From: an uncultured Gammaproteobacteria bacterium
GTDB taxonomy: Bacteria; Pseudomonadota; Gammaproteobacteria; HK1
Length of the DNA stretch: 64,000 nt
Direction of reading: 5' to 3'
Assembly (NCBI GenBank): GCA_958295835.1
Contig: OY282378.1
Span: 186,001-250,000 of the forward strand
Positions 31,777 through 40,221 of this stretch are shown here, piece after piece. A program made the position numbers and the translations under genes. Positions within the stretch are counted from its first letter, which is position 1; each line of letters starts with the position of its first letter. The notes below the pieces were generated by a model. It saw only the letters and a program-made list of their open reading frames with translations, searched no databases and was not told the DNA's origin.

Positions 31777-32958
31777 ATGTGGATCGATCGACAGATAGAA
31801 CCCCTGTTCCTTCGGAGGGCCGCGACCCGCCCGGTCGTCGTCCTGACCGGTGCGCGCCAGACCGGGAAGACGAGTCTGGTGCGCCGGTTGTTCCCGGATC
31901 ATGCCTACGTCACGCTGGACCTGCCGAGCGAGGCGGAGCAGGCGGAACGCGATCCCGGGTCATTTCTCGCCCGCCATCCGCCGCCCCTCATCGTGGACGA
32001 AGTGCAGTATGCCCCCGGCCTCTTTCGCCATCTGAAGGTCGCGGTGGATCGAGAGCGCGAGCGCCCGGGCGCCTTCCTGCTGACCGGCTCGCAGCCGCTC
32101 GGCCTCATGCGATCGGTCTCCGATTCACTGGCGGGGCGTGCCGAGGTCATCGAGCTGGAGCAACTCTCCTTCGCCGAAGCCAGGGCGGCGCATCCGCATC
32201 TCGGCGTCGAGGAGTTCCTGGTTCGCGGCGGATTCCCGGAGCTCCACCGGAATCCGGAGATCGATGCGGAAGGCTTTCTCCGCTCCTATGTGGCGACGTA
32301 CCTGGAGCGTGACCTCCGGCAACTCCTGCAAGTATCGAGTCTGCGGGACTACGAGCGTTTCCTGCGCGCCGCGGCGTTGCGCTCCGCCCATCTGCTGAAC
32401 AGGGCCGACCTTGCCCGTGACGTGGGCATCAGCGGTTCGACCGCCGCCGCCTGGCTCTCGGCGCTGGAGGCGACGCATCAGCTCATGGTGCTCGAACCGT
32501 GGTTCGCCAACCGGACGAAGACGCTCGTGAAACGGCCGAAGCTGTACCTGCGTGACGCCGGGCTCGCGGCCTTCCTGTGCGGCGTGCACTCCGTGGAGGC
32601 TCTGCACTCCTCGCCGCTGGCGGGCGCGCTGTGGGAAACGCTCGCCTGCGCCGAGATCCGTCGTGCACAGTCGAACCGGCGCGGTGGGTGGGACCTCCAC
32701 TTCTGGCGTGACCGGAGCCGCGAGGCCGACTTCCTCCTGCACCGGGCGGGCGCATTCCACCTGGCGGACGCGAAGTGGACCGAGCACCCGGGTGCGCGCG
32801 ACGCGGGGGCGTTGCTCAAGATCGCCCAGGATCTACCGGCCGGCAGCGTCCGAACGATGTCGATCTTCTGCCGGGCGCCCAATCCTTATCCGCTGGGTTC
32901 CGGTGGCGTGAATGCCGTTCCGTTCGATGCGCCAGAGTCGCTCGCGGAGTGGGCCTGA
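31777..32958 (+). CDS. ATP-binding protein of the AAA_14 / DUF4143 family
   Basis: A 393-residue P-loop protein: Walker A GARQTGKTSL (25-34, Lys31), Walker B 'PPLIVDEVQYAP' (about 69-80), sensor 'FLLTGSQPL' and 'EQLSFAEA', then a winged helix ('RAAALRSAHLLNRADLARDVGIS') and the C-terminal DUF4143 domain with the nuclease-like 'LHFWRDRSREADFLLHRAG'. Many such proteins occur next to toxin-antitoxin or mobile genes, but a function is not established. The last 73 bp overlap the 3' end of cobN on the other strand. Confidence 0.88.
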   Translation: MWIDRQIEPLFLRRAATRPVVVLTGARQTGKTSLVRRLFPDHAYVTLDLPSEAEQAERDPGSFLARHPPPLIVDEVQYAPGLFRHLKVAVDRERERPGAFLLTGSQPLGLMRSVSDSLAGRAEVIELEQLSFAEARAAHPHLGVEEFLVRGGFPELHRNPEIDAEGFLRSYVATYLERDLRQLLQVSSLRDYERFLRAAALRSAHLLNRADLARDVGISGSTAAAWLSALEATHQLMVLEPWFANRTKTLVKRPKLYLRDAGLAAFLCGVHSVEALHSSPLAGALWETLACAEIRRAQSNRRGGWDLHFWRDRSREADFLLHRAGAFHLADAKWTEHPGARDAGALLKIAQDLPAGSVRTMSIFCRAPNPYPLGSGGVNAVPFDAPESLAEWA

Positions 32959-35900
32959 CGGGCAGGCCCGACCTCGCAACGGCCGCCCGCCACCGCGCGC
33001 AGCGTGCCCGACGCGGAGTTCGACCGCGGCTTCCACAGGCCGCGTTCCACCGCTTCCAGAAAGCGCTCGGCCATCTCCCGAAGGGCATCGGGATTCTTCT
33101 GCTCCAGGAACTCCAGGACGGACTCGTCCTCCATGAACGCCGCATGGACCGCATCGAAATGGTGGTTCTCCACCAGGCCGGTGGTGGCCGCGAAGGCGAA
33201 CAGGTAGTCCAGCGTCGCGGCCATCTCGAAGCCGCCCTTGTAGCCGTGGCGCTGCATGGCCGCGATCCACTTCGGGTTGACCACCCGCGCCCGCACCACC
33301 CGTGCGATCTCCTCCTTCAACGTTCGGATACGAGGGGTCTCGGGCCGCGAGTGGTCGTTGTGGTAGACCACCGGGCGCTCGCCGCCCAGATGCTTGACGG
33401 CCGCGGCCAACCCCCCTTCGAACTGGTAGTAGTCGTCGGAGTCGAGCAGGTCGTGCTCCCGGTTGTCCTGGTTGTGAAGCACCGCCTCCACCCCGGCCAG
33501 CCGGGCTTCGAACAATCCATGCTCGGCCGCTCCCTCGGCCCCGGCGCCGTAGGCATAGCCTCCCCAGGCCACGTAGGCGCGCGCGAGGTCGGCTTCGGAT
33601 TCCCAGCCCCGCTCGTCGATCAACGCCTGCAAGCCGGCTCCATAGGCGCCGGGCTTGGAGCCGAACACCCGGAAGCCGGCCCGGCGCGCGGCCGTCGCTT
33701 CATCGACCCCCGCCGCCGCCAGCCGGGCCGTCTCGTCCCGGATGCTCGCCGCCAGCGGATTGAACCGCTCCGGCTCGTCGAGGGCCGCCACCGCGCGGGC
33801 GGCCGAATCGAACAGGTCGATCTGGGAGGGAAAGGCGTCACGGAAGAAGCCGGAGATGCGCAGCGTCACGTCGACGCGGGGGCGGTCCAGCAGGTCGAGC
33901 GGCAGGACCTCGAATCCGGTCACCCGCCGGGAGGCCGCTTCCCAGGTCGGCTTCACCCCCATCAGGGCCAGGGCCTGGGCAATATCGTCACCGCCGGTCC
34001 GCATGTTCGCCGTCCCCCACGCGGACAGCGCGATGCGCTTCGGCCACGCCCCCTGCTCCTGGCGATGACGCTCCAGCAGCAGCGTCGCCGACTGCCAGCC
34101 GAGCTTCCAGGCCGCCGGGGTCGGCACGGTGCGGGTGTCGACGGAGTAGAAGTTCCGTCCGGTGGGCAGCACGTCGAGGCGCCCTCGTGTCGGCGCCCCG
34201 GAGGGACCCGGCGCGAGGAACTTCCCGTCGAGGGCCTGCCGGCACGCATCGAGCTCGTGCGGCCCCGAGGCGACCACCCGCGAACGCAGGTCGCTCTCGA
34301 CGAATTCGAGCACCGCGCGGGTGCGGGTCCAGCCGGGCTCGGGTTGCTCCGAGCCCTCGATGAGCTTTCGAGCCAAGTGCTCCAGCCGCTCGACGGTGTC
34401 GCCGCAGGTGCGCCACGGTGACGGCGAGTCCAGCGCGGCGGGGCGAGGCCCGCGCCAGCGCTCTCCGAGGTCGGCGGACAGGGGGTCGAAATCCGCCAGG
34501 CCCAGATCCCCGGCGAGCGCGCGCATCAGCGAGGCATCGGCCGGCTCCCGGTCGCCGCGCGGCAACCTGACCATGGACACCAGGAGGTCGTTCAGCGCCT
34601 GCCCCTCCGGCGAACGGCCGAGCACGTGCAGGCCGCCGCGGATCTGCATCTCCTTCAGCTCGCAGAGGTAGTTGTCCAGCTTCGACAGCGCCGTGTCGTG
34701 GTCGTCGGCGGTGTCGATACCGCAGTCGCGGTCGAGCCCGACGTGGGCGGCCAGGGCCAGGATCTCCTCGCGCAGGATCTTCAGCCGGCGCGGGTCCACC
34801 CCGGCCGCCTCGAAGTATTCGTCGACGAGCAGCTCCAGCTCCGCCAGCGGGCCGTAGGTCCCGGCCCGGGTCAACGGCGGCGTGAGATGGTCGACGATGA
34901 CCGCCTGCGCCCGCCGCTTGGCCTGGGTTCCCTCGCCGGGGTCGTTGACGATGAACGGATAGAGGTGCGGCAACGGCCCGAAGACCGCCTCCGGAAAGCA
35001 GGTCTCGCCCAGCGCCAGCGCCTTGCCCGGCAACCATTCGAGATTGCCGTGCTTTCCCATGTGGACGACGGCGTGGACGTCCTCCACGGCGCGCAGCCAG
35101 GCGTAGAACGCGAAGTAGCCGTGCGGCGGCGCCAGGTCCGGATCGTGGTAGGTCGACTGGGGGTCGATGTTGTAGCCACGCGCCGGCTGCAATCCGACCA
35201 CCGCGTTGCCGCAGCGAAACGCCGGCAGGGCGAACTCGCCGGAGGCGGGGAGGTAGAACGGGTCCTGCCGGGGGTCGCCCCAGCGTTCGTCGACGCGCCG
35301 GCGTACCGCCGCCGGCAGCGCATCGAAATACCGCCGGTAGGCCCGCAGCGTCAACGTCACCGTGACCTCGCGGCCGTCCACCGCGGCGTTGGTCGGCCCG
35401 CGGCGGAGCCTTTCGATCAGCCGGTCACCGTCGCGTGGGATGTCCGTGACCCCGTAACCCGCCCGTTCGAGGGTGCGCAGCAGCTCGACGACGCTGGCGG
35501 GGGTGTCCAGTCCGACCCCGTTGCCGAGCCTGCCGTCACGGTTCGGGTAGTTGGCGAGGATGACCGCGACGCGCCGTTGGTGCACCGGGGTGCGGCGCAG
35601 CCGCAGCCAGCTCGCGGCCAGGCGGGCGACGAACTCGACGCGATCGGGCACCGGCTCGTAGACCACCAGGGAGCACTGTGTGGATTCGTCGAACCGGGCC
35701 TCGCCCTTGAAGGAGACGGCGCGCGAGAGGATTCGCCCGTCCACCTCGGGCAGGGCCACGTTCATGGCGATGTCCCGGGCGGAGAGCCCGCGGGTGGTGG
35801 CGCGCCAGTCCTCCTCGTTGCCGCCCGAGAAGACCAGTTGCAGCACCGGCGCATCCGTGGCGTTCAACGGCGAGTCGGCCGCGGGCCGGCCGGGGGTGGA

Positions 35901-36710
35901 GACGGCGAACCCGGTGCCGTTGAGCACGATTCCGGCCCCGCTCTCGGCCAGCAGGGACTCGACGACCCCGGCCGACACGGGATCCTTCAGGCTCGTGCAA
36001 TACACCGGCAGGCAGTTGATCCCGTTGCGGCCCAGCGACTCGATCAGGGCCAGGATGGGGCCGAGATTGCCGGCCTGCACCAGGGCTCGATAGAAGACCA
36101 GCGCCGCCACCGGCCCGTCGTGCGTCCAGGCCCGCCGCAGGTCGCCGAGGCCGGGGCGGTCCAGGCCGGGCCAGCAGATCCCCGCCCGCGGCAGCTCGGC
36201 CGGCTCCCGCCAGTCGAACCGGCGGCCGATCAGCGACGCGGCACAGGCGAGAAAGCTCCTGGCGTTCGCGGCGCCGCCGTGCAGCAGGAAGCTCCACAGT
36301 CGCCGGCAGGTTTCGGCATCGACGGTGGAGTACGCGGCAAGCTCGGGGTCGGGCTGATCGTCGCCGGGCAGCAGCACCAGCGTGGCGCCGGTGCCCGCGC
36401 AGGTCTCCGCGATCTGTTCGACCCCGTAGGGCCAGTAGGACTTCCCGCCGAGCAGGCGCACGATGACGAGTCGCGCCCCGGCGATGACCGTCTCGCAGTA
36501 GAGGTCCACGGAGGCGTGGTGCGAGAGCTGCATGAGGTTGGCGAGACGGACGGCGGGAAACGTCTCGCCCAGGGTCCCGCGCGCCGCCGCCAGCGAGGCG
36601 AGCTCGGTGTCGGCGGCCGACAATACGACGATGTCGCCCGGGGTCTGGCCGAGATCGACGGCTTCGCTGCCGTCGGCGACGGCCCCCGGCTGCGCCTTGA
36701 GAAGGTGCAT
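32886..36710 (-). CDS. cobN: Cobaltochelatase subunit CobN
   Basis: The large subunit of the ATP-dependent aerobic cobaltochelatase, which inserts cobalt into hydrogenobyrinic acid a,c-diamide with CobS and CobT (neither is in the window). It is 1274 residues, close to the family size. Landmarks are the start [14 protein letters not shown], '[20 protein letters not shown]', '[34 protein letters not shown]' with the conserved histidines, '[14 protein letters not shown]', '[23 protein letters not shown]' and '[13 protein letters not shown]'. The last 45 or so residues after 'LWKPRSNSA' are unlike other CobN proteins and overlap the convergent ATPase gene, so the original stop may have been lost. 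No cobalamin riboswitch was seen upstream. Confidence 0.94.
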   Translation of the reverse strand: [1274 protein letters not shown]

Positions 36711-36997: not shown

Positions 36998-38020
36998 TCA
37001 GCCGTCGATGTATCCCCGCAACGTGTCGTGCAGCGATCCCGGGATGGTGACGCCCTCGGTCGGGGTGCGTTCGCGGGCCCGGTATCGGCGGTCGGACGGG
37101 AGCCGCGTGCCGTCCTGCTCCAGGACCTTGGCGAAGAGCGTCTCCGCGTGGGCGAGCTGCGCGCCGCGGTCGCCGTCGCCGGTGCAGCGGGCGGGGTCGA
37201 TCGCGATCATGAACTCGCCGCCGCATGGTGCGCCGACCCTGCCAGCGTCCTTCGCATGGGCCTCGAAGCTGAATACGTCGCCGATCAGCGCGCCCGCGAG
37301 CAATTCGACCATCAGCGCGATGGCCGCGCCCTTGTGGCCGCCGAAGGGGAGCTGCGCGCCGGTCAGCGCGGTGGCGGGGTCGGTGGTCGGCTCGCCGTCG
37401 GGACCGATCGCCCAGCCCTCGGGGAGCGGCTTGCCGTCGCGCAGGTGGATCTGGATCTCGCCGCGCGCGCTGGCGCTCGACGCCTGGTCGAAGACCAGCG
37501 GCGGCCGTCCCGCCCGCGGCCAGGCGAACGCCATGGGGTTCGTGCCGTAGACCGGCCTGGTGCCGCCGGCCGGCGCGACGTACTGGAGCGCGGCGGTGAA
37601 GGCGAAGGCGACGAGTCCGCGCTCGGCGAGACGTTCGACCTCGGGCCAGAGCGCCGCGACGTTGTAGGCGTTCACGATGGCGAGCGCCGCGATGCCGAAC
37701 TCGCGGGCGCGTCGCTCCAGCGGGTCGGCGCCGAGCTGAAGCGTGAGCGGCGCGAAGCCGAAGTGCGCATCGGCCCGGATCACCGCGGGGGCGAGATCGC
37801 GGAACGTCGGCTCCGCATCCGGCGAGACCCCCGCCTCTCGTAGCGCCTTCACGTAGAACGGGATCCGGAACAGGCCGTGCGACGCGCATTCGTCGCGCTC
37901 CGCCGCGGTGACGGTATCGGCGATGGCGCGCGCGTGTCGCGTGGAGTATCCCTTGGCGCGGAGCGCATCGGCTGCAATCTCGTGTACCTCTTCCAGGGTC
38001 AGGTGTACGCGGTCGTTCAC
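36998..38020 (-). CDS. Malate/L-lactate dehydrogenase-type NAD(P) oxidoreductase (Ldh_2 family)
   Basis: A 340-residue enzyme of the malate/L-lactate, ureidoglycolate and delta-1-piperideine-2-carboxylate reductase family, which reduces a 2-oxo acid or imine with NAD(P)H. Typical stretches are 'TAAERDECASHGLFRIPFYVKAL' with the catalytic His, 'VNAYNVAALWPEVERLAERGLVA', 'RPVYGTNPMAFAWPR' and 'PFGGHKGAAIALMVELLAGAL'. The start is GTG at 38018-38020 with AGGAGAACC before it; longer frames lack such a site. It follows the UGSC gene on the same strand by 187 bp and may share its transcript. The substrate cannot be told from the sequence. Confidence 0.88.
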   Translation of the reverse strand: MNDRVHLTLEEVHEIAADALRAKGYSTRHARAIADTVTAAERDECASHGLFRIPFYVKALREAGVSPDAEPTFRDLAPAVIRADAHFGFAPLTLQLGADPLERRAREFGIAALAIVNAYNVAALWPEVERLAERGLVAFAFTAALQYVAPAGGTRPVYGTNPMAFAWPRAGRPPLVFDQASSASARGEIQIHLRDGKPLPEGWAIGPDGEPTTDPATALTGAQLPFGGHKGAAIALMVELLAGALIGDVFSFEAHAKDAGRVGAPCGGEFMIAIDPARCTGDGDRGAQLAHAETLFAKVLEQDGTRLPSDRRYRARERTPTEGVTIPGSLHDTLRGYIDG

Positions 38021-38207
38021 GGCAGGTTCTCCTGCGTTTTCCGGACTTTCGGTACGAATGGACGATGGGGGCACGCGGAACCGCACCGGCGCCGGCCGGG
38101 GCGGTCGGCCGGCCTCCGCCGAGCCTCGCCCCTCCCCTGGTCAACCGGCGGCTTCATCGAGCCCGGCGAGCCAGATGCCCTTCGCCGAGCCCCCGCTCCT
38201 CCCTCGA

Positions 38208-38732
38208 TCAACCGCCGGTCAGCTTCTCCACGATCTCCTCCATCGCCTCGTCGGCGATGGCCCGGATCTCCTCGTCGGTGCGGTTCTGGATCGGGTGCGG
38301 GACCCAGACGATCGCCGGCTCATAGCCGAGTGAAGCGGACTGCGCGGCCGCCGCCTCCCGGAATGCGGTGGTGGCGATCATCACGCCGGGAATGCCTCGT
38401 TCATCGAGGTCGAGCATGTCATGCACACTGCACGACGTGCACGAGCCTCAGTCGGAGAGGGCGACGACGACGACGTCGACCTCCTCGGCGACGGTCTGCG
38501 CGAGCTCGATCGGCGCGGTGCGGGTGTTGGTGGGCTTGGCGTAGCGCTTCACGTCGAGCCCGCGCCCGGTGAAATGCGATTCGAGCCGATCGAGGAACGT
38601 GCTTCCCCGGGCCTTGCCGATGTCGAGCAGCCCGAGGGTCAGGCCTTCGAGCGCGGGCGGCGGAGCGCGACGCCCGCGCCGGACCGGCGAGGTCTCCGCC
38701 GTCGGGTCGAGTAACCGAATGCCGTCGTTCAT
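38208..38732 (-). CDS. UGSC-family selenoprotein (in-frame UGA read as Sec)
   Basis: Two open segments in the same frame (38732-38451 and 38447-38208) are joined by one UGA at 38448-38450. Read through, they give a 174-residue protein with Sec95 in ALSD-U-GSCTSCS. This is the signature of the family known as UGSC motif (seleno)proteins, whose biochemical role is unresolved. The continuation after UGA ('VHDMLDLDERGIPGVMIATTAF') has normal protein character and no initiation site of its own. Cys98 and Cys101 give a possible selenenylsulfide partner. The ATG has a strong GAGGAGGAGG site upstream. The gene follows the thioredoxin-fold gene by 61 bp. Other members carry Cys at this place; selABCD genes are not in the window. 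Confidence 0.85.
38409..38444 (-). promoter_or_regulatory. Candidate bacterial SECIS hairpin downstream of the UGA
   Basis: Two alternative hairpins lie within 42 nt after the UGA. (a) 38444-38437 (TCGTGCAC) pairs with 38426-38419 with one G-U; its 10-nt loop starts with G. (b) 38436-38429 (GTCGTGCA) pairs with 38416-38409 with one mismatch; its 12-nt loop starts with GU, 19 nt after the UGA. Form (b) fits the usual distance and the G-first apical loop of bacterial SECIS elements better. Confidence 0.5.
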
Positions 38733-38793
38733 GGTGCCTCCTCCTCATTCAACCGTGGCCTTGCACGGACTTTCGTTTCCGATGCGGTCCCGC

Positions 38794-40221
38794 TCACACC
38801 CCCACCTCCTTCGTCACCGGACTGCTGCCGCGGGGACCGCTTGCCACCCAGCCTCCGATGACGGCGCTCATGAGCCCGGCCCCGCCGCCGGCGCGCACGA
38901 CGTTCAATCCGCCTTCCCGGAACTTCGGCATCGAGTCCCGGACGAGCTCCGGCTTCACGCCCGCGTCCACGCCGCCCGCCCCGCGTACCAGCTCCGATCC
39001 CGGACGGACCGTCGCGGCCATGAGGGCACGCTTGATCCGCGCCTTGTCCCACCCGCCTTCCTTGAAGATCCGCCAGTGCTCGGGCGAGAGCACGACGAAG
39101 GCGTCGATGCACTCCACGAGCTTCGGGTGCCCGATCGAGTTCAAGGTCATCGCCAGCGAGCGGGCGAGCGATTCCGGGCTGCGCGAGCCTTCGTCCATGT
39201 TCGGGCTCAAGCCCCCGCCCCCGAAGAGGGTGACCGCGGACGCGCCGGGAGCGATGCCGCGCTCCACGCCGAGCGGCTGCCAGTCCGGATCGGACTCGTC
39301 CTCGGCGAAGCACAGGGTGTACTTGCCCGGCCAACCCAGGGTCGCGCGGTCGATCCCGCCCGGCACGCCGCCACCGACGTTGCGGATCACGAGCTGCAAC
39401 GCGCGGCCGATGCTCGCATTGGCGCGATTGCCCTGGCCGAGCGCGTTCACCCCGGAATTCATGCCGATGCGGCGGGCGACGGGACCGTTGACCACGACCA
39501 TCGGACTCGAGAAGTACGTGGTGCAGAGCAGCCCGTGCATCGCGAACCCGGGTTCGAGCGCCGCTTCCACCGCGGCGAGGACCACCGGCATGTACTCCGG
39601 CTTGCAGCCCGCCATCACCGCGTTGATCGCGATCTTCTCGACCGTGCACAGCGCGTTGTTCGGCGGGATCGCGCCGACGATCTCCTGCGGGTCGCGCGCC
39701 GTGCCCTTGAGCATGCGCAGCACCCGCACCGGGGTCGGCGGGACCACCGGCAGGCCGTCGCTCCAGCCGCGGGAAAAGCACAGCTCGTGCTCGTCTTCGG
39801 GCGCGTGCACGTCGATGGCGCGCGCCGCCAGCGGCGGCTCCCCGAACGCCACTTCGAGGATCTCCGGCATGCCGGGATCGACGCTCTTCGAGCCGCAGCC
39901 CGGCTGGAAGTCGGGCAGATCGGCGCCGAGGGGGCCGAGGCCCGTCACCCGGCTCCACTCGGCGCGGTCCCAGCCGGCGGTGCGCCCGGCTTCGGCATCG
40001 TCCTCGAAGCGGATGAGGGTCGGTACCGTCTCGATCCCCAGGCGCCAGGACTGCTCCAGCGAGCGGTCGTCGATGGCGCCCAGCCCGGTCGGGAACGTCG
40101 GGTCGTCCTGGGTGTAGACGGTCAGTCCGGCGCCGCTCGCCACGATCTCGTGCAGCACCGGCTGGACGAGATCGCAGGTCGGGCAGTCGCGCTTGGCGAC
40201 GACGACGAAGTGAGCGCTCAT
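38794..40221 (-). CDS. Thioredoxin-fold protein, partner of the UGSC protein
   Basis: A 475-residue protein. Residues 1-90 resemble thioredoxin, with 'HFVVVAKRDCPTCDLVQPVL' giving a CxxC at Cys13 and Cys16 and a 'VPTL' cis-proline. Residues 150-475 form a conserved domain of unknown function that starts 'WSDGLPVVPPTPVRVLRML' and continues 'PPNNALCTVEKIAINAVMAGCKPEYMPVVLAAVEAAL' and 'NALGQGNRANASIGRALQLVIRNVGGG'. That domain occurs next to UGSC genes in other genomes, as I recall. A redox link, in which the CxxC domain reduces the Sec centre of the next gene product, is inference. The gene lies between an LLM oxidoreductase and the UGSC gene on the same strand. Confidence 0.8.
   Translation of the reverse strand: MSAHFVVVAKRDCPTCDLVQPVLHEIVASGAGLTVYTQDDPTFPTGLGAIDDRSLEQSWRLGIETVPTLIRFEDDAEAGRTAGWDRAEWSRVTGLGPLGADLPDFQPGCGSKSVDPGMPEILEVAFGEPPLAARAIDVHAPEDEHELCFSRGWSDGLPVVPPTPVRVLRMLKGTARDPQEIVGAIPPNNALCTVEKIAINAVMAGCKPEYMPVVLAAVEAALEPGFAMHGLLCTTYFSSPMVVVNGPVARRIGMNSGVNALGQGNRANASIGRALQLVIRNVGGGVPGGIDRATLGWPGKYTLCFAEDESDPDWQPLGVERGIAPGASAVTLFGGGGLSPNMDEGSRSPESLARSLAMTLNSIGHPKLVECIDAFVVLSPEHWRIFKEGGWDKARIKRALMAATVRPGSELVRGAGGVDAGVKPELVRDSMPKFREGGLNVVRAGGGAGLMSAVIGGWVASGPRGSSPVTKEVGV

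Follow-up and report, generated by a model that had tools for sequence, protein, structure and literature searches.

Proteins of the UGSC family (NF041046/PF24696) are among the prominent selenoprotein families of marine metagenomes, where they make up 8.2% of selenoprotein genes (PMC9402790), and a 2026 review ranks them with families of largely uncharacterized function (PMC13188914). The section of that review on selenoprotein operons covers the SAO and Tso operons, and UGSC is not mentioned there. A 2008 paper regarded UGSC as likely to be thioredoxin (Trx)-like, and a fusion of UGSC with a domain called Unknown_1 has been described in Global Ocean Sampling data (PMC2398784). In glycine reductase, protein B holds selenocysteine (Sec), binds glycine and releases its ammonia; the reductant is a thioredoxin dithiol, and cleavage of the carbon-selenium bond is coupled to formation of a selenenyl-sulfide (PMC10298544). 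D-proline reductase is said to work without thioredoxin (PMC10298544).

Here we compare with these systems a UGSC gene found in the window, by which we mean the whole 64,000-nucleotide stretch of DNA that was analysed. Our main reading, to which we give a probability of about 0.55, is that UGSC and its thioredoxin-like neighbour form a two-part reductase that works like selenoprotein B of glycine reductase, with the in-frame UGA encoding Sec. The features of the gene are as follows.

38208..38732, minus strand: UGSC-family selenoprotein gene, 174 aa, Sec at residue 95; stop codon TGA at 38210-38208.
38448..38450, minus strand: in-frame TGA, codon 95, very likely Sec95, from the reading of the frame and from homologues.
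38737..38746, minus strand: Shine-Dalgarno-like stretch ahead of the UGSC start codon, from reading of the sequence.
38419..38435, minus strand: core SECIS-type hairpin, 7 bp stem and loop GUG, nt 16-32 counted from the U of the UGA.

The sequence-only reading had placed at 38208-38732, with no strand given, two segments of one frame split by a UGA with the joint D-U-G-S-C-T-S-C. Both segments are real and lie on the minus strand; the plus strand does not yield them. From the ATG at 38732 to 38208 the frame reads MNDGIRLLDPTAET...VVVALSD-U-GSCTSC...EKLTGG-stop in 174 codons with a single internal TGA, and GAGGAGGAGG is positioned 4 nt ahead of the ATG. Without read-through the product would be 94 aa long. 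The read-through product scores 141.2 bits against NF041046 ('UGSC family (seleno)protein', cut-off 125) and 138.6 bits against PF24696 (cut-off 25), and both alignments span the UGA, which bears out the earlier assignment to the UGSC family and the protein character claimed for the sequence after the UGA. With both cut-offs passed, the UGSC motif and the Sec/Cys exchange, the gene itself does not differ from the family; what is added here is the partner domain (PART, below), the thioredoxin link and a predicted fold.

A protein search returned 535 relatives at E<=1e-3. Sec or Cys had been expected at residue 95, and the codon is UGA here; among the 120 homologues listed, Cys occupies this position in 119 and Trp in one (P0088), the Trp being what is expected when a gene caller reads UGA as Trp. 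Two peptide patterns found 103 relatives in genomes, and in the 80 best of these loci the codon is TGA in 68 and Cys in 12, a ratio that is not unbiased because one of the two patterns includes the Cys motif. Named hosts of these loci include Reyranella isolates; R. soli and R. aquatilis have UGA-type genes together with selA. A lone sequencing error does not explain the UGA, which recurs in these 68 loci and in a 99%-identical UGSC gene (OY282353.1, 'uncultured Gammaproteobacteria bacterium'). Across 25 aligned rows of diverse members, the motif keeps Sec95 and Cys98 without exception; its third position, 101, holds Trp in one member (L112) and Ala in those of the fusion subfamily. A redox centre of Sec95 with 'Cys98 or Cys101' had been proposed; the alignment favours Cys98. 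As these two are the only invariant ones of the three motif positions, the redox pair is likely UxxC.

The presumed hairpin close to the UGA was also found. It has a minimum free energy (MFE) of -26.4 kcal/mol (shuffle mean -18.2, z -2.7), or -24.5 for 45 nt; its apical loop, GUG, starts 19 nt past the UGA, the stem is 8 bp (7 in the common core), and a longer stem extends to nt 45 (38406). Compared by hand, it satisfies the bSECIS model as given in PMC13188914 (loop of 3-9 nt with G in the first two positions, upper stem of 4-16 bp, spacing of 16-37 nt, MFE <= -7.5). Rfam gave no SECIS match; there was one hit, below the gathering score.

The hairpin separates the two types of gene. We compared 71 UGA-type genes (68 named loci, that of the window and two of genome G139, with 47 distinct 45-nt stretches among them) with 13 Cys-type genes. 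The 7-bp core stem is complete in 68/71 UGA-type versus 0/13 Cys-type genes, and the loop opens with GU in 71/71 versus 0/13. The codon of Ser100 is TCG in all 71 UGA-type genes versus 5 of the 13 Cys-type genes. At residue 103, 66 of the 71 UGA-type genes encode Leu or Val (three have Thr, one Phe and one Met), whereas all 13 Cys-type loci and 118 of the 119 listed Cys proteins have Thr. In L012, where Cys101 is replaced by Trp, the paired base of the stem is exchanged as well. The hairpin thus constrains the codons of UGSC and its residues 102-103. Against synonymous-codon shuffles, UGA-type genes have a mean z of -1.20, with 22/71 at p<=0.05 taken singly, and Cys-type genes a mean of -0.22, with 1/13; folding energy alone is therefore modest evidence for a SECIS element. 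A second set of 43 distinct stretches (40 from UGSC and three from GrdB-like genes) gave a mean z of -1.62, with the same core complete in 15/43 and a GU loop start in 32/43. The fusion subfamily has another stem (CCCGC/GCGGG) at about the same position.

The genes selA, selB, selC and selD, which the sequence-only reading had named as the ones to look for, are all present in the 5.73-Mb genome of the window. Three stand in one row: selA (577 bits, C1:1625512-1626852), selB (407 bits across its pieces, C1:1626888-1628933) and, directly behind selB, tRNA-Sec (73.6 bits, anticodon TCA, C1:1628979-1629070); selD (303 bits) lies at C1:735566-736495. A second tRNA-Sec match, in L002 and at the gathering score, is a tRNA-Ser according to ARAGORN and was set aside.

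Across 32 genomes drawn from the UGSC loci (all 13 Cys-type loci and 19 of the 71 UGA-type loci), selA scored above its cut-off in 19/19 UGA-type versus 0/13 Cys-type genomes, which are not 32 independent events because a single change on the UGSC tree accounts for the Sec/Cys label; matches below the cut-off occurred in 4 of the 13 Cys-type genomes. That one change suffices with motif columns removed or kept, and its branch support is weak (69 and 79% SH-aLRT). Among 289 genomes of the class of G139, selA exceeded its cut-off in 27 of the 28 that bear UGSC, the miss being a genome with UGA-type genes that is 77% complete (G240), and also in 14 genomes without UGSC. Against the trend, G459 has a Cys-type UGSC gene (L137) inside a selA-positive genome.

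These data bear on whether the UGA is an ordinary stop in a truncated or decaying gene. The sole point in favour is that the standard code stops at codon 95. The homologues do not end there: 68 of the 80 loci keep the UGA within a match that continues past it. Hairpin and codon constraint are found in UGA-type and not in Cys-type genes, the genome encodes the full Sec machinery, and Cys-containing homologues exist besides. We consider an ordinary stop very improbable, and decoding of codon 95 as selenocysteine near certain.

The gene upstream of UGSC encodes a protein of two domains, of which the second is referred to here by the working name PART, for the unnamed partner domain of UGSC.

38794..40221, minus strand: partner gene, 475 aa, thioredoxin-like and PART domains; ends 61 nt before the UGSC start.
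39937..40221, minus strand: thioredoxin-like domain of the partner, residues 1-95, with C13-P-T-C16.
38797..39789, minus strand: PART domain, residues about 145-475, GWSDGLPVVPPT ... MAGC; without Pfam or NCBIfam match.

The CPTC motif sits in a domain likened to thioredoxin by profiles and by a predicted model. NCBIfam thioredoxin models gave nothing at E<=1 with the partner of the window alone, and matched 14 of 23 of its relatives. In selenoprotein B and PrdB the partner is GrdE or PrdA, with a Cys-derived pyruvoyl group; PART gave no match to those models, nor to any other curated family of Pfam or NCBIfam. A Cys of PART (residue 206 in P0003) is invariant in 11/11 and 15/15 aligned rows. 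Foldseek likened the partner weakly to class I fumarase (TM about 0.2, rmsd about 16), a match that was not used.

The association of the two genes is widespread. Of the 80 named loci, 78 have a partner match upstream of UGSC and on its strand, and the two without one (L045, L060) lie at contig ends; the partner is partly lost to contig ends in L028, L030, L031 and L049 and is in two pieces in L103. The scans of the 289 genomes (UGSC at E 1e-3; PART at E 1e-10 with at most seven candidates per genome) found UGSC and PART in the identical 28 genomes, of which 11 contributed rows to the PART profile and the other 17 did not. UGSC occurs there at 73 places, 72 of them with TGA, and in 28 of the 29 places inspected as L113-L141 PART adjoins it on the same strand. 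Among 22 wide loci, which were chosen by hand, tblastn found UGSC in 21 (not L146) and PART in 21 (not L155), Trx-PART in six and a thioredoxin-reductase-like gene with a C-A-x-C-D motif in seven. PART was absent near UGSC in L155 and in L125, the one exception among L113-L141. In other genomes the two form one chain, in the order UGSC-PART. The 569-aa record P0213 (PF24696 plus partner) had seemed to be a fusion in the reverse order, PART-UGSC; the central part lies out of frame and the chain stops right ahead of the UGA, and we took it as a frameshifted record. Large lineage expansion of this selenoprotein was seen in G402, with eight UGSC genes, and in G409 and G492, with six each, nearly all with UGA.

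Because kin of the thioredoxin-like partner accompany the relatives of UGSC nearly everywhere, the pair would probably be a selenium-dependent reductase. Further genes around it offer hints at a substrate.

36998..38086, minus strand: Ldh_2 (malate/L-lactate dehydrogenase family) gene, directly downstream of UGSC.

This gene is possibly an operon member with UGSC. Two genes downstream of UGSC, at 32886-36710 of the window on the minus strand, lies a gene for the cobaltochelatase subunit CobN (TIGR02257, 1611 bits). In five of seven Bacteroidota loci (L083, L088, L090, L097 and L101) a BKACE gene stands directly upstream of the partner, scoring 306 bits against PF05853 in L088 and overlapping the partner by 4 nt in L088 and L101; in these five the Cys-type UGSC gene and BKACE apparently form one operon, with divergent genes for 3-hydroxyacyl-CoA dehydrogenase, an amino-acid permease and an AraC regulator. 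ABC transporter genes are present at the UGSC/PART loci of G139 (phylum Bacteroidota). The flanking genes vary between lineages, and the Ldh_2, MetX-like and alpha/beta-hydrolase neighbours are given little weight because most of their recurrences fall within a single group of related loci. Together, the neighbours suggest a role in the catabolism of a small hydroxy or keto acid or of a related compound.

Profile comparisons point to a distant kinship of UGSC with the Sec-bearing end of selenoprotein B (GrdB/GrdF/PrdB). All 37 members of one alignment set (A1) match NF040794 and TIGR01917 at E<=1 (best 3.7e-5 and 1.4e-4), and in a more diverse set (A6) only 14 of 25 match TIGR01917 at that level. 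Aligned with hhalign to 18 GrdB/PrdB-like proteins (A4), A6 gave P = 1.1e-5 and a probability of 82% with the Sec columns matched; the narrower sets, A1 aligned with A3, gave only 39%. The similarity spans only about 75 residues, and the protein of the window scores far below the selenoprotein B cut-offs (TIGR01917, 20.5 of 602.2 bits; TIGR04483, 15.2 of 300 bits), with nothing at E<=1 for PF07355 (GRDB). UGSC and selenoprotein B/PrdB share Sec use, UxxC in the same alignment column and a similar following stretch (HP versus FPLG), and the UxxCxxC motif of GrdB (PMC13188914) is also present in the UGSC gene of the window. Unlike the proteins of TIGR01917, NF040794, NF040795, TIGR04483 and PF07355, UGSC is a short stand-alone domain with PART as its partner. 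The genome of the window also contains three GrdB/PrdB-like frames that run past a UGA: L106 (G000:C1:3149172-3149555), L108 (1720305-1720664) and L109 (977962-978315), with the motifs UPVC, UPNC and UPAC, respectively. These are likely further selenoproteins of the selenoprotein B superfamily.

The predicted model of UGSC (pLDDT 89) has five alternating strand-helix units, and its fold is predicted to be doubly wound alpha/beta. Its best structural rows are flavodoxin/receiver/PurE-like; thioredoxin, GrdB and PrdB are all absent among the matches listed, the best 50 in each of two fold searches. Among solved structures, the searches turned up no convincing relative for any of UGSC, PART and the GrdB-like set. 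The predicted fold of UGSC speaks against a grouping in the literature by which UGSC would be a Trx-like selenium thiol peroxidase or a general thiol-disulfide oxidoreductase, with PART as client or helper, as do the sequence kinship with GrdB/GrdF/PrdB and the identified neighbours, which are mostly metabolic, transport or regulatory genes. The UxxC motif and the coupling to thioredoxin would suit such an enzyme, which we nevertheless judge improbable.

We infer instead a reductase role for UGSC and its partner, which could proceed as follows. Sec95 would lie at the end of the third strand of the predicted doubly wound domain, and PART would hold a small organic substrate on which Sec95 would act as nucleophile or reductant. 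Cys98 would next form a selenenyl-sulfide with Sec95; the fused thioredoxin domain would reopen it, restoring the selenol, and would itself be recharged by thioredoxin reductase. The analogy is limited to glycine reductase, because of what is said of D-proline reductase and thioredoxin, and a GrdE/PrdA-like role of PART is an analogy too, since PART is similar to no curated family. The roles may also be divided the other way, with the catalytic site in PART, for example through the invariant Cys of MAGC, and UGSC a mere electron relay from thioredoxin to PART. PART is indeed the larger partner, its Cys does not vary in the aligned rows and UGSC-PART fusions exist; yet in the window PART already carries a fused Trx-like domain, which would seem to make a separate relay superfluous, and the GrdB kinship would make Sec the substrate-facing residue. 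We think catalysis by PART unlikely.

The two-part reductase can be framed more specifically, and more tentatively. UGSC and PART may be a third, compact branch of the GrdB/PrdB reductive enzymes, present in bacteria such as Reyranella and Bacteroidota, in which PART replaces GrdE/PrdA, thioredoxin is built in or thioredoxin reductase is encoded adjacently, and a small organic acid is cleaved or reduced. The SECIS hairpin would then have overwritten part of the active-site helix (Ser102-Leu/Val103 in UGA-type versus Ser-Thr in Cys-type proteins). We hold this version possible, at less than even odds.

The Global Ocean Sampling fusion (PMC2398784) likewise joins a UGSC domain to a conserved uncharacterized domain, and Unknown_1 may be PART in the same pairing. 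The PART partnership, the thioredoxin link and the GrdB-type kinship were not found in the available portions of PMC2398784, PMC13188914, PMC9312934, PMC5029168, PMC7539508 and PMC9402790. If true, the PART partner, the thioredoxin feed and the GrdB-type ancestry would make UGSC a two-protein enzyme that could be rebuilt in vitro, and the Cys-type pairs of Bacteroidota would open it to selenium-free testing. The hairpin data show, at the level of single residues, a recoding signal constraining its host protein. With the proposed reductase role, a widespread family would gain a testable job.
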